NCBI GenBank assembly: GCA_017558115.1
Contig: JAFYWG010000009.1
Span: 1 to 50,584, forward strand
Reading direction: 5' to 3'
Length of the DNA stretch: 50,584 bases
Source: Alistipes sp.
Lineage (GTDB): Bacteria > Bacteroidota > Bacteroidia > Bacteroidales > Rikenellaceae
Shown in pieces: positions 2,966 to 7,515 of the stretch. The notes under the pieces are model-generated. The model saw only the letters and a list, made by a program, of their open reading frames with translations, made no database searches and was not told the DNA's origin. Each line of letters begins with the position of its first letter. Positions within the stretch are counted from its first letter, which is position 1. The translations under genes and the position numbers were made by a program.

Positions 2966-4081
2966 ATGAAAATAAGGATTTTGCCATCACTTCCAGGTCT
3001 GCGTACCCTCGATAAGTATATCTTGGGTAAGTTCTTGCGCACCTACATCTTTGGCATCTTGATGATGATCATCATCCTCGTGGTGTTCGACTATGTGGAG
3101 AAGGTCGATGACTTCACGGAGCTTAAGGCGCCTTGGAAGGCTATCATTTGGGACTACTACATGAACTTCATTCCGCTGTTCATCAGTCAGTTTAGTGCCC
3201 TTTTTACCTTTATCGCCGTTATCTTCTTCACCTCGAAGATGGCTATGCAAACCGAGATCGTAGCGATACTCTCGGGCGGTGTCAGCTTCCGCCGCTTCAT
3301 GTGGCCCTATGTAGTTGGTGCGACGCTCATCACGGCGATGAGCCTTGCACTTAGTCTCTGGATTATCCCCGAGGGACAGAAGACGAGTGTAGAGTTCGAG
3401 AGTAAGTACCTGCAGAGTCAGCAGTCGCTCGTCTACCCCGAGCATGTGTATCGTCAGATTGAGCCAAATACCTACGCCTATGTGCGTGGCTACTCGCCAG
3501 GCATAGAGCATGTTCCATTCTTCGCTATCGAGCGCTTTGATAGCACAGAGCTTGTCGAGACACTCGATGCGGCAAATGCCTCGTTCGATGTGGAGTCACG
3601 ACGCTGGACAGCACCCCGCTACATGATCTACTCGCGAGGTGAGGATGGTACGCTAAGTGGCAAGCAGTATCGCAATCTTGATACGCTCATCAACTTGGAT
3701 GTTAGAGAGTTGGGTGATATTTCGGGCGTGGTAAAGACTCTCACCTACGAAGAACTTAACGAATTTCTCGACCAGCAGCGTAGCAAGGGCTCGGATGAGG
3801 TGTTCCTCATCGAGGTAGAGCGCCACGCACGCTTCTCATACCCCATATCTACCTTTATTTTGACCATCATCGGCGTAGCACTCGCGTCGCGCAAGGTGCG
3901 TGGAGGTATGGGTATGCACATCGGTATCGGTATCGCCCTATGCTTCATCTACCTGATGGTGGGACGTGTATCGGAGCAGATTGCCATAAGTGGTTCTATC
4001 GAGCCATGGATTGGCGTGTGGCTGCCGAATATCATATTTGCAATAATTGCAATCATTGTTTACCGCAAAGCACCTAAATAG
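2966..4081 (+). CDS. LptF/LptG (YjgP/YjgQ) family LPS-transport permease
   Basis: A 371-aa inner-membrane protein with the LptF/LptG layout: three N-terminal helices (around residues 25-45, 65-90 and 105-130), a periplasmic beta-rich region of about 140 residues, and three C-terminal helices. In the Lpt machine such permeases pair with LptB ATPase and hand lipopolysaccharide to LptC and the periplasmic bridge. An LptC candidate lies at 13947-14951 in this window. The N-terminal LDKYILGKFLRTY matches the family opening. Whether this is the LptF or the LptG partner cannot be decided from the sequence. It sits between tgt and the mqnE fusion with gaps of 22 and 2 bases, so it is co-transcribed. 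Confidence 0.88.
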   Translation: MKIRILPSLPGLRTLDKYILGKFLRTYIFGILMMIIILVVFDYVEKVDDFTELKAPWKAIIWDYYMNFIPLFISQFSALFTFIAVIFFTSKMAMQTEIVAILSGGVSFRRFMWPYVVGATLITAMSLALSLWIIPEGQKTSVEFESKYLQSQQSLVYPEHVYRQIEPNTYAYVRGYSPGIEHVPFFAIERFDSTELVETLDAANASFDVESRRWTAPRYMIYSRGEDGTLSGKQYRNLDTLINLDVRELGDISGVVKTLTYEELNEFLDQQRSKGSDEVFLIEVERHARFSYPISTFILTIIGVALASRKVRGGMGMHIGIGIALCFIYLMVGRVSEQIAISGSIEPWIGVWLPNIIFAIIAIIVYRKAPK

Positions 4082-4083
4082 TC

Positions 4084-6420
4084 ATGCAGAAAGTTAATGA
4101 AATCGTCGCATCGCTACGTCGTGGTGAGCGACTTTCGGCAGAGGATGCCCTTGTGTTGTGGCGCGAGGCACCACTCTGGTTGCTCGGCGAGGTAGCCACG
4201 GAGCGCAAAGTGTTGAAGAGCGGTCGTAATGTCTTCTACAACCGCAACGTACACCTCGAGCCCTCGAATATCTGCCTCTTCAACTGTGAGTTCTGCTCGT
4301 TCCGTCGCAAGGAGGGAGACCCCGATGCGTGGGCTATGACCATAGATGAGGTCGAGGCACGCGCTAAGGAGTTGCGTGGCGCCGATATCACGGAGGTGCA
4401 TATCGTAGGTGGCGTACACCCAAGGCACGACCTTGCTACGTATGTGGAGATGGTGCGTAGGGTGAAGCAGCAGCTGCCTCATGTGGCGGTTAAGGCATAT
4501 ACCGCTGTTGAGATATTCTATATGATTAAGCGCGAGGGTGTCTCGATTGTTGAGGGCTTGCGTCGTCTTAGCGAAGCGGGCATGGAGTGCATCCCTGGTG
4601 GTGGCGCCGAAATCTTCGATGCCAAGCTCCGTGCGCAGATATGTCCCGATAAGTGTAGCGCGGCGGAGTGGCTTGCGGTGCACCGTGCTGCCCACAACAT
4701 GGGTATCTCGACAAACTGCACAATGCTCTATGGCCATATTGAGACCCTTGAGCAGCGCATAGACCACTTGGAGCGTCTGCGTAAGTTGCAGGATGAGGCG
4801 CCGGGCTTTGATGCCTTCATTCCACTGAAGTACCACAGCCGCAATAACCGCATGTCGGAGGCGGGCGAGTGCTCCGTGGAGGATGACTTGCGCACAATAG
4901 CTATCAGCCGCTTGTTCTTGGATAACATACCTCACATTAAGGCATACTGGGTGTCGTATGGTAGGGCAACCACCGAGATGGCGTTGGCCTTTGGTGCTGA
5001 CGACATCGATGGTACGATTGGTGACACAACAAAGATATACTCCATGGCGGGTGGTACGGACCGCCCCTCGATGAGTGTTGAGGAACTTGAGTATATGGTG
5101 CGTGCCGCGGGTATGGAGCCCGTAGAGCGCGATTCACACTACAACGTAGTCAAACGCTCAAATAGTAAGCCAAAGATGGTGCAACAGCCAAAGCCTGAGT
5201 CAGTTGTGGTGGAAAAACCTGTGGTAAAGGAGGCGAAGGCCGAGGTGCCTAAACCTGTTGAAGAGCCAGTTGAGAAGCCTAAGCCCGTTGAGGCGGCAAA
5301 CGAGCGCAAGGTGGAGGCGGCACACGCGGTTGAGCCCAAGAGAAGTGTAAAGGAGGAAAAAGTTGAGAAAAAGAGTATGACAGAGCATAAGATTGAGCCA
5401 AGCAAGGAGAGCGTAGCTAAGCAGGCGAAGCCTAAGCATGAGGAGCGTAGCAAGGATAAGGATAATAAGGGTGGCTTCATGTCGAAGTTGTGGGGCTTCT
5501 GCAAGTTCTTCTATAGCCACTTCAAGATTACGTCGCACCTCATCTTTATCGCCATCTTCCTGCTCCTTCTTGTGGTTCTGCTACACTTTGGTTTGAAGTG
5601 GGGTACACGCCACAATGAGACCATCGTAGTGCCCAACTTCGTAGGTCAGACCATAGATGAGGCGCGTGGTGTAGCCTCGGCAAAGGATCTAAAGATCGTT
5701 GTGCGCGACTCAATCTTCGATGTAGACCTTCCTGGTGGTATGATCGTGGATCAGCTACCTGGCACGTCGGATGTGCGCGATGTTACGGTGAAGCCTGGTC
5801 GCAAGATATATGTTACAATCAACGCCTACACGCGCCGTCAGGTAGATGTGCCATATGTGGCAAAGCAGACATTACGCCAGGCGCTCAACCAGCTCGAGCG
5901 CTCGGGACTTACCATAGATAAGCTTGTATACGAGGCAGATATGACATCTACCGACTATGTGGAGAAGCAGGTGGTAAATGGCAAGGAGGTGAAACCATCA
6001 TCGAAGCGCACCGTGTCCGTGGGTACTGGTGTAACACTCCATGTGACCTACCATCGCGATGACCAGTACACTGTTGCACCTCGCATCGTAGGCCTCTCGT
6101 TGGCTAAGGCGAAGTCCACGCTTTGGGATAGTGGTCTTAACGTGGGCAAGGTCATCTACGATGAGAGCGTTGAGGATATCATCCAGCGCCGCACCGCGCG
6201 CGTATATATGCAGTCGTCGGCTATTGGCTCGTCACAGCGTCGTGGTGCTAAGGTAGACATCTACCTCTCGGCGAATGATGCGCTGGTAGACTCATTGCGC
6301 CTATTGGCCGATAAGGATGCGCAGCGTGCTGATGCGCAGCGCCGCAAGGAACAGTTGGCAAAGCAGCGCGAGGCAGATAGCCTTGCCGCACTTGGTATAA
6401 CAAACTTAGAGGAGGAGTAA
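4084..6420 (+). CDS. mqnE: aminofutalosine synthase MqnE fused to a membrane-anchored PASTA protein
   Basis: A 778-aa single reading frame with two unrelated parts. Residues 1-358 are a complete radical SAM enzyme of the MqnE type: LEPSNICLFNCEFCSFRR carries the CX3CX2C cluster motif at C64, C68 and C71, and PGGGAEIF, ICPDKCSAAEWL and MLYGHIET follow. MqnE makes 6-amino-6-deoxyfutalosine for menaquinone synthesis in the cytosol. Residues 360-465 form a Lys/Pro/Glu/Val-rich linker. A membrane helix lies at about 486-506, followed by three PASTA repeats (about 514-578, 587-657 and 663-731) and a charged tail, presumably periplasmic. PASTA proteins followed by an RluD-type gene are a usual Bacteroidota arrangement as separate genes; here the PASTA gene has no stop or gap separating it from mqnE. 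An internal ATG at 5479 could still give the PASTA part alone. Confidence 0.9.
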   Translation: MQKVNEIVASLRRGERLSAEDALVLWREAPLWLLGEVATERKVLKSGRNVFYNRNVHLEPSNICLFNCEFCSFRRKEGDPDAWAMTIDEVEARAKELRGADITEVHIVGGVHPRHDLATYVEMVRRVKQQLPHVAVKAYTAVEIFYMIKREGVSIVEGLRRLSEAGMECIPGGGAEIFDAKLRAQICPDKCSAAEWLAVHRAAHNMGISTNCTMLYGHIETLEQRIDHLERLRKLQDEAPGFDAFIPLKYHSRNNRMSEAGECSVEDDLRTIAISRLFLDNIPHIKAYWVSYGRATTEMALAFGADDIDGTIGDTTKIYSMAGGTDRPSMSVEELEYMVRAAGMEPVERDSHYNVVKRSNSKPKMVQQPKPESVVVEKPVVKEAKAEVPKPVEEPVEKPKPVEAANERKVEAAHAVEPKRSVKEEKVEKKSMTEHKIEPSKESVAKQAKPKHEERSKDKDNKGGFMSKLWGFCKFFYSHFKITSHLIFIAIFLLLLVVLLHFGLKWGTRHNETIVVPNFVGQTIDEARGVASAKDLKIVVRDSIFDVDLPGGMIVDQLPGTSDVRDVTVKPGRKIYVTINAYTRRQVDVPYVAKQTLRQALNQLERSGLTIDKLVYEADMTSTDYVEKQVVNGKEVKPSSKRTVSVGTGVTLHVTYHRDDQYTVAPRIVGLSLAKAKSTLWDSGLNVGKVIYDESVEDIIQRRTARVYMQSSAIGSSQRRGAKVDIYLSANDALVDSLRLLADKDAQRADAQRRKEQLAKQREADSLAALGITNLEEE

Positions 6421-6423
6421 ACC

Positions 6424-7515
6424 GTGGTAAACGAAGAACTATATAATAAGGAGGAGTTGGAGCTCCTTGATGGCGTCGCTGATGGCGCGGACGAGGGTGA
6501 TGAGATGTATGAGCACTTCTCGGTGGTAGTGGATAAGGGTCAGTCGCAGATGCGTCTCGACAAGTACCTCACCATACGCCTCGAGCACACCTCGCGCAAC
6601 CGCATACAGACTGCAGCCGATGGCAAGAATATCCTTGTCAATGGCAAGCCCCAGAAGTCGAGCTACAAGGTAAAGCCCCTCGACCATATCTCTATCGTGA
6701 TGCCCTATCCCCGCCATAAGGAGGAGATTGTGCCAGAGAATATACCCCTCGACATTGTATTTGAGGATGGTGACGTTATAGTGGTAAATAAGCCTGCGGG
6801 CATGGTTGTGCACCCCGGTGTTGGCAACCATAGCGGCACGTTGGTGCACGCCTTGTCGTACCACTTGAGCGAGCTTGAGATGTTCTCGGAGGGCAATGCC
6901 CGAGCGGGCCTTGTTCACCGTATCGATAAGGACACTTCGGGATTGTTGGTCGTAGCGAAGAATGAGCGTGCTCATGCAGCGCTTGCTAAGCAGTTCTTCG
7001 ACCACACCATCTACCGCCGCTACGTAGCCCTCGTGTGGGGTAATATTGCTGAGGATGAGGGTACTATCATCGGAAATATTGGCCGTAGCCCCAAGGATCG
7101 CCTACAGATGTACGTATTCGAGGATGGCTCAGATGGTAAGCATGCTGTTACGCACTTCAAGGTGTTGCGCCGCTATGGCTATGTGACGCTTGTGGAGTGC
7201 CGCTTGGAGACTGGACGCACGCATCAGATTCGTGTGCACATGTCATGGCAGGGTCATCCCTTGTTCAACGACGAGCGCTATGGTGGTAATCGCATCCTCA
7301 AGGGTACAACATTTATGAAGTATAAGCAGTTTATCGAGAACTGTTTTAAACTTATTCCACGTCAGTCGCTCCACGCCCGCGCATTGGGATTTGAGCACCC
7401 CACAACGGGTAAGTATGTGCAGTTTGAGTCGGAGCTCCCCGAAGACTTCAAGGCCGTATTGCAGAAGTGGGATACCTACACCGATGCTGTGGGCCTCGAC
7501 ATGGATGAGATTTAA
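6424..7515 (+). CDS. rluD: RluA/RluD-family 23S rRNA pseudouridine synthase
   Basis: A 363-aa protein that isomerises uridines in rRNA to pseudouridine. It has an acidic N-terminal extension, an S4 RNA-binding domain (around 37-95) and a catalytic domain with GLVHRIDKDTSGLLVVAK, which includes the catalytic aspartate, then ETGRTHQIRVHM. The start is GTG at 6424, eight bases after an AGGAG stretch and three bases after the preceding stop; an ATG 27 codons further in is an alternative. The gene follows the PASTA-encoding gene, as in many Bacteroidota. The RluD assignment over RluA/RluC is likely from the length and S4 domain, but the modified positions are not proven. Confidence 0.93.
   Translation: MVNEELYNKEELELLDGVADGADEGDEMYEHFSVVVDKGQSQMRLDKYLTIRLEHTSRNRIQTAADGKNILVNGKPQKSSYKVKPLDHISIVMPYPRHKEEIVPENIPLDIVFEDGDVIVVNKPAGMVVHPGVGNHSGTLVHALSYHLSELEMFSEGNARAGLVHRIDKDTSGLLVVAKNERAHAALAKQFFDHTIYRRYVALVWGNIAEDEGTIIGNIGRSPKDRLQMYVFEDGSDGKHAVTHFKVLRRYGYVTLVECRLETGRTHQIRVHMSWQGHPLFNDERYGGNRILKGTTFMKYKQFIENCFKLIPRQSLHARALGFEHPTTGKYVQFESELPEDFKAVLQKWDTYTDAVGLDMDEI

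Follow-up and report, generated by a model that had tools for sequence, protein, structure and literature searches.

Several described bacterial systems share features with the gene presented here. MqnE is the aminofutalosine synthase of the futalosine menaquinone pathway (PDB 6xi9 and 6xig). Membrane-anchored PASTA proteins are encoded by stand-alone genes next to an RluD-type gene in the same genus and family. In the PASTA Ser/Thr kinases (PknB, PrkC/Stk1), a cytosolic enzyme is followed by a linker, one membrane helix and PASTA repeats on the outside. Finally, infB, cheA and clpB are bacterial genes in which an internal in-frame start gives rise to two products.

The locus described below, from an Alistipes genome, can be compared with each of these. 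With known MqnE it shares the whole enzyme part, the cluster cysteines and the pathway partners, but the match ends at residue 361, after which the protein continues for >400 residues with a membrane helix and PASTA repeats. The helix, the repeats and the place before rluD are those of the stand-alone PASTA protein, here joined to MqnE. The domain layout is like that of the PASTA kinases, except that the enzyme is a radical SAM protein of a quinone pathway; a domain search finds no kinase domain in the fused protein, which scores 72.3 bits on a kinase model with a cut-off of 450. As in infB, cheA and clpB, we propose that a downstream start in the same frame yields an N-terminally shorter product; unlike in those genes, the inner start would once have been that of a separate gene, and the longer product would be a cross-pathway fusion. 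From sequence comparison, we consider it likely that this is a nested two-product gene, giving both a membrane-tethered MqnE fusion and a separate PASTA protein from the inner start. What appears to be new is the Met (ATG 5377-5379) that the linker keeps at the putative former PASTA start.

In the open-licence literature, ‘aminofutalosine synthase’ and ‘PASTA domain’ never occur in one paper, and papers retrieved for radical SAM, PASTA domain and fusion protein together are unrelated, judging by title and the beginning of the abstract. Likewise, nothing on this fusion came up among the open-licence papers listed for PASTA in Bacteroidetes or Bacteroides, RluD, fusions with an internal start, internal initiation, futalosine in Alistipes and MqnE at the membrane. 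A term search of PMC4746308 returned neither Alistipes nor PASTA. The available portion of PMC9306216 places Alistipes among the vitamin-gene genera of the ruminant gut and makes no mention of mqnE.

Organization of the locus

The window is the whole stretch of DNA that was analyzed, 50,584 nt of Alistipes sp. contig JAFYWG010000009.1. Translation of the window shows that the frame at 4084-6420 on the + strand is open throughout, with 778 codons plus a stop, and that MqnE (residues 1-354) is followed in it by a disordered linker, a single membrane helix and three PASTA repeats. A sequence-only reading had described it as a fusion in a single frame; this description stands, with no stop codon in the 5160-5480 region where the parts are joined. 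In source records the fused protein is annotated as ‘CofH family radical SAM protein’. The features are as follows:

2966-4081, + strand: upstream neighbour of the LptF/LptG family, whose stop is 2 nt ahead of the mqnE start
4084-6420, + strand: fused mqnE-PASTA ORF, 778 aa plus stop; from the open frame and relatives
4084-5145, + strand: MqnE (aminofutalosine synthase) part, residues 1-354, with C64, C68 and C71
5146-5376, + strand: linker before the Met (residues 355-431), disordered for the most part; corresponds, in lengthened and open form, to the short gap between mqnE and PASTA in split relatives
5357-5376, + strand: A-rich leader (12 of 20 nt are A) ahead of the internal ATG, weakly folded
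5377-5379, + strand: internal ATG (Met432), probable retained PASTA start codon
5377-6420, + strand: nested ORF for a short PASTA protein, 347 aa; predicted second product
5539-5604, + strand: membrane helix, about residues 486-507; from hydropathy and structure model
5626-5823, + strand: PASTA repeat 1, domain match
5842-6015, + strand: PASTA repeat 2, weak match (21.6 bits)
6076-6270, + strand: PASTA repeat 3, domain match
6424-7515, + strand: downstream neighbour, RluD-type pseudouridine synthase (PseudoU_synth_2 and S4)

The 2-nt spacing between the lptF/G stop (gene at 2966-4081) and the mqnE start at 4084 suggests translational coupling of an LPS-export permease gene with the fused gene.

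MqnE part and menaquinone pathway

By sequence, residues 1-354 are MqnE, with a predicted enzyme activity to match. The best NCBIfam model is TIGR03700 (MqnE), which matches residues 9-356 with 430.8 bits, 3.75 short of its cut-off of 434.55; competing models score 336.8 bits (MqnC) and 298.3-309.2 bits (CofH) on the same part. All seven relatives scored (five fused and two split, one of the latter a piece without its first residues) also lie just below the TIGR03700 cut-off, at 425.7-434.2 bits. The near miss is thus a family trait, and decay of MqnE as a reading of the low score was rejected. MqnE from Pedobacter heparinus (6xi9/6xig) can be aligned over residues 7-361 with 355 bits, and the same two entries are the top fold matches of the AlphaFold model, with TM-scores of 0.81-0.83 by target length and 41-42% identity. 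The mean pLDDT of this model is 66, and several stretches within the MqnE part are low too, so it is used here for layout only. The cluster cysteines C64, C68 and C71 singled out in the sequence-only reading do form a CxxxCxxC motif, and they are invariant across 42 aligned fused proteins.

The pathway context named in that reading was also found. The genome of the window, which is 85% complete, contains two MqnA/MqnD-type matches (PF02621), one of which has a TAG inside it or at its edge, and MqnC at 432 bits; menD has no match in it. The strong CofH-type matches in the fused genomes examined are in 11 of 11 cases two only, MqnC and the fusion, and a second MqnE was found in none of the 11.

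Matches resembling menD occur in 72 of 150 genomes of the family, all below the cut-off, and were not taken as MenD. Two of them, G091:C16:31243-32460 (178 bits) and G067:C13:172837-174051 (165 bits), lie above the rest and come from genomes that also have MqnE; these genomes may have two routes to menaquinone, or MenD-like enzymes that serve a different purpose. A different pattern is seen in 64 of the 180 genomes of the genus, whose sole match, at about 1e-53 to 1e-63, is of the strength given by PASTA alone; the 11 that were read keep PASTA between lptF/G and rluD. A strong MqnC match is absent in six of those 64 examined (G097, G101, G022, G066, G072 and G093). From these PASTA-only matches and the six genomes without a strong MqnC match, the futalosine pathway seems to have been lost in much of the genus.

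PASTA part and predicted membrane topology

The PASTA model PF03793 matches three stretches behind the membrane helix with 62.4 bits, compared with a cut-off of 23.2; the middle stretch, at 21.6 bits, is below the cut-off on its own. The helix covers residues 481-507 in the structure model and begins at residue 486 by hydropathy. One helix and three repeats had been noted from the letters of the sequence and are borne out here, with the middle repeat the weakest. The layout of the model predicts, as had also been proposed, a cytosolic MqnE, a single membrane helix and PASTA repeats outside. In 10 of 10 fused genomes examined, PASTA matches outside the fused gene are confined to one frame of 734-804 residues, which leaves the fused gene as the sole source of the triple PASTA protein there. 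A PASTA gene ahead of an RluD-type gene, expected for these bacteria, is present in most of the relatives read.

Distribution of the fusion

The sample comprised 150 genomes of the family and 180 of the genus. Among the latter, 105 were read at the locus, a non-random choice in which fused-looking loci were taken first. The fusion is intact in 37 of these, 36 from one clade and one apart, while 54 have mqnE and PASTA as separate neighbours; the clade-by-clade count that the sequence-only reading had called for therefore gives relatives of both kinds, and the two parts are not always separate genes. The 54 consist of 51 loci plus G246, G259 and G260, which were rejected as a class of their own because they are split neighbours of the usual kind, preceded by a long open frame. 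Twelve genomes have PASTA but no full mqnE: 11 with PASTA alone between lptF/G and rluD, and G206, where the fusion is cut by contig ends and is excluded from the fused count. In the other two, mqnE has no PASTA nearby, and one of these loci is close to a contig end. At L094 (G126), mqnE lies behind lptF/G with neither PASTA nor rluD in the 6.7 kb read, and there is a PASTA match on another contig.

Outside the genus, 63 loci were read, and there is no fusion among them. In a protein search, radical SAM, CofH_C and PASTA domains are found together in the best 120 of 1022 matches, and the closest named records are Alistipes sp. metagenome-assembled genomes from deer, buffalo, yak and sheep hindgut.

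Origin and loss of the fusion

Most other relatives have the gene row lptF/G-mqnE-PASTA-rluD, which points to loss of the mqnE stop as the origin of the fusion. In split relatives (27 loci), the MqnE stop is only a few codons past the last conserved motif. Across 51 genus loci, the distance from the mqnE stop to the first PASTA ATG has a median of 12 nt (range -26 to 129), and the two genes are often in frame. With a gap this short, and often the same frame, loss of one stop suffices for fusion. The excess of in-frame neighbours (30 of 51) was not used, as some loci were picked for a reported long frame.

In a tree of MqnE, 39 fused rows (36 genomes) form one clade with three split genomes, G167, G212 and G229, with a support of 100. 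The rows include L138-L140, exact matches of G187, G204 and G233 that were dropped from the 37; L137, L141, L142, L143 and L144 were omitted from the tree as duplicate genomes or cut loci. One further fused genome, G241, is placed elsewhere on a long branch. A tree of four concatenated proteins from 53 genomes recovers the same clade (36 fused and three split, support 100) and nests G167, G212 and G229 within it beside G166, G211 and G219, again at 100. A topology that keeps the fused genomes together without the split three is rejected (p-AU 1.7e-21). Taken together, the nesting and the AU test indicate that the fusion arose once in the clade and was split again once, and that a further fusion took place in the single genome G241; several separate fusions within the clade were rejected in favor of one gain and one loss. 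By these trees, the fusion is undone once within the clade. In the re-split trio the MqnE stop is 7-18 residues past ERDTHY; what remains up to the PASTA ATG is a short stretch that has further stops in all three.

We propose the following history. In the ancestor of one Alistipes clade, the mqnE stop in the row lptF/G-mqnE-PASTA-rluD would have been lost, and the short intergenic gap would have grown into a disordered linker within the reading frame. Initiation at 4084 would yield MqnE joined to the membrane-anchored PASTA protein, and ribosomes starting at the old PASTA start, ATG 5377, would make the 347-aa PASTA protein alone, as in the relatives. The stages can be seen side by side in related lineages: neighbours one stop apart, fused, linker expanded, re-split and inner start kept. 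This suggests a route by which bacteria may fuse genes of unrelated function with neither product lost, and annotation as one long protein can conceal a second product.

Linker and predicted tether

The linker expected from the sequence-only reading is present, but at about 130 residues (355-485) it is longer than the 100 or so given there. Residues 360-464 are disordered in the AlphaFold model (pLDDT <50), and the alignment of 42 fused proteins has no invariant column between residues 354 and 489. The part before the Met is hypervariable, with 7-149 codons across the fused genomes. It contains no in-frame stop in 2146 codons (37 genomes), compared with 279 stops over the two other frames; since loci were classed as fused for being open, this count carries weight only together with the tree. 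For six close pairs, dN/dS in this part is 0.97, 0.15, 0.25, 0.09, 0.52 and 0.40, with some synonymous values near saturation. The values are low in the closest trio (0.09-0.25), and the constraint is uneven overall. With no in-frame stop and a low dN/dS in the closest trio, the full-length fusion is probably translated too. The open, partly constrained linker, together with the stops in the corresponding stretch of the re-split trio, favors read-through of the linker in fused genomes.

Two fused frames have particular ends or linkers. The frame at L133 (G095) has 843 residues with an acidic, Asp/Glu/Tyr-rich tail at its end, and that at L168 (G177) has 895 residues with a linker of 194 residues.

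As no second mqnE was found in the 11 fused genomes examined, MqnE would stay at the inner membrane barring cleavage of the linker. Whether this matters to the cell is a separate question from the number of products. The chance that the tether is functionally neutral, with the linker cut or the anchoring idle and both MqnE and PASTA acting as in split relatives, is in our estimate a little below even; this figure concerns the effect of the tether and overlaps with the two-product reading, so the two are not exclusive. The substrates and products of MqnE are soluble, which leaves no obvious use for a tether; moreover, the fusion was lost once with both parts kept, and the linker evolves fast. 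Set against this, the frame is open in 36 genomes of one clade with a single loss event, dN/dS is low in the closest trio, and the stretch before PASTA in the re-split genomes is short and interrupted by stops, as if it had been kept only as a tether. A tether that is tolerated or mildly useful would fit these observations, and we consider a neutral or mildly useful tether far more probable than a role in sensing. If all MqnE is located at the membrane in these bacteria, they offer a natural test of whether tethering benefits an early quinone enzyme.

Probable internal start in the linker

All 37 fused genomes and all 121 fused proteins have a Met in the linker. Under a strict placement rule, by which the Met must lie 20-82 residues ahead of the helix and 8 or more beyond MqnE, 36 of the 37 genomes have one. 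In a MAFFT alignment, 34 of 42 proteins have a Met in the same column as the window, and the other eight have one elsewhere in the linker.

The context of this Met was compared with that of other codons in the 21 genomes with a single unambiguous Met. The fraction of A in the 20 nt upstream is 0.486, compared with 0.304 at other linker codons, and the 42 nt around the Met fold at -1.57 kcal/mol compared with -7.40. None of 500 synonymous shuffles reaches 0.486 (mean 0.424, sd 1.0%); as the shuffled codons come from the entire ORF, some of the A excess may be a property of the linker in general. Similar values are obtained at the mqnE starts of fused genomes (0.469 and -2.11 kcal/mol, n=37), at split PASTA starts (0.496 and -1.53, n=48) and at lptF/G starts (0.403 and -2.53, n=47), as opposed to 0.237 and -9.06 kcal/mol at 634 other Met codons. 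In sequence context, then, the linker Met is a match for mqnE and split PASTA starts and unlike other Met codons. The rluD starts are low (0.300 and -3.98 kcal/mol, n=6), so the signature is not universal. The available part of PMC6847099 reports that Bacteroidota start sites favor A and weak structure, and that initiation in Flavobacterium johnsoniae is favored by A at -3, -6, -12 and -13 and by weak structure. At the 21 sites, position -3 is A in 10 and G in 11, so the strongest published signal is present only in part.

Blind scoring of all internal ATGs gave a best candidate in the linker in 35 of 37 genomes (the exceptions are G204 and G220), although just 79 of the 763 internal ATGs lie there; the corresponding binomial P (2e-32), like the other start-context statistics, takes genomes as independent and ignores their relatedness. 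Of the 18 internal ATGs of the fused frame in the window, ATG 5377 scores best. The Met at 5479 (MSKLWGF, near the helix) was rejected as an internal start, with an A fraction of 0.30 and -7.8 kcal/mol, ATG 5377 being better. Net charge per residue is higher after than before the Met picked by this score in 37 of 37 genomes (means +0.185 and -0.088), and the contrast in the window is slight (0.093 after, 0.065 before). A start-like ATG is also kept in G241 and in the re-split trio, where it is the head of the separate PASTA gene. ATG 5377 is thus probably the retained start codon of the former PASTA gene, and with such a site in the linker, PASTA can probably still be made alone.

Alternatively, only the full-length fusion might be made, the linker ATG being an intergenic relic or arising simply because the linker is A-rich and unstructured. 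The unusual composition of the linker, with an A excess downstream of the Met too, would fit, as would a full frame that is open and partly constrained. We nevertheless consider this alternative unlikely: a relic should erode, yet the Met is kept in 37 of 37 genomes in a linker hypervariable in sequence and length; the signal peaks near the Met and resembles true starts; and the re-split trio has such an ATG heading a separate PASTA gene. In the two-product reading, both starts would be used in the cell.

Regulation and other explanations

The receptor-kinase-like layout produced by the stop loss invites ideas about regulation. The ratio of free PASTA protein to tethered form might set the position or activity of MqnE at the envelope, a speculative extension of the two-product reading that we think improbable. 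A second idea is that the tethered MqnE is controlled by PASTA repeats that detect wall fragments, so that quinone supply is coupled to the envelope, in the manner of the PASTA Ser/Thr kinases. The shared layout (cytosolic enzyme, juxtamembrane stretch, one helix and PASTA repeats) is in keeping with this, as are the match of residues 414-729 to the PknB_PASTA_kin model, at the score given above, and the presence of Staphylococcus aureus PrkC PASTA structures among the fold matches. However, a long, disordered and unconserved linker is a poor signal path, and PASTA occurs without MqnE in the same place at the 11 such genus loci read. A sensing role is accordingly very improbable in our view, and the link between respiration and envelope status raised in the sequence-only reading finds support in no result. 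An assembly or sequencing artefact has a negligible chance: although the eight named loci are all from metagenome-assembled genomes and G241 rests on one assembly, comparison refutes an artefact for the clade, with the same fusion, joined by differing linkers, in 37 genomes and in the best 120 of 1022 protein matches.
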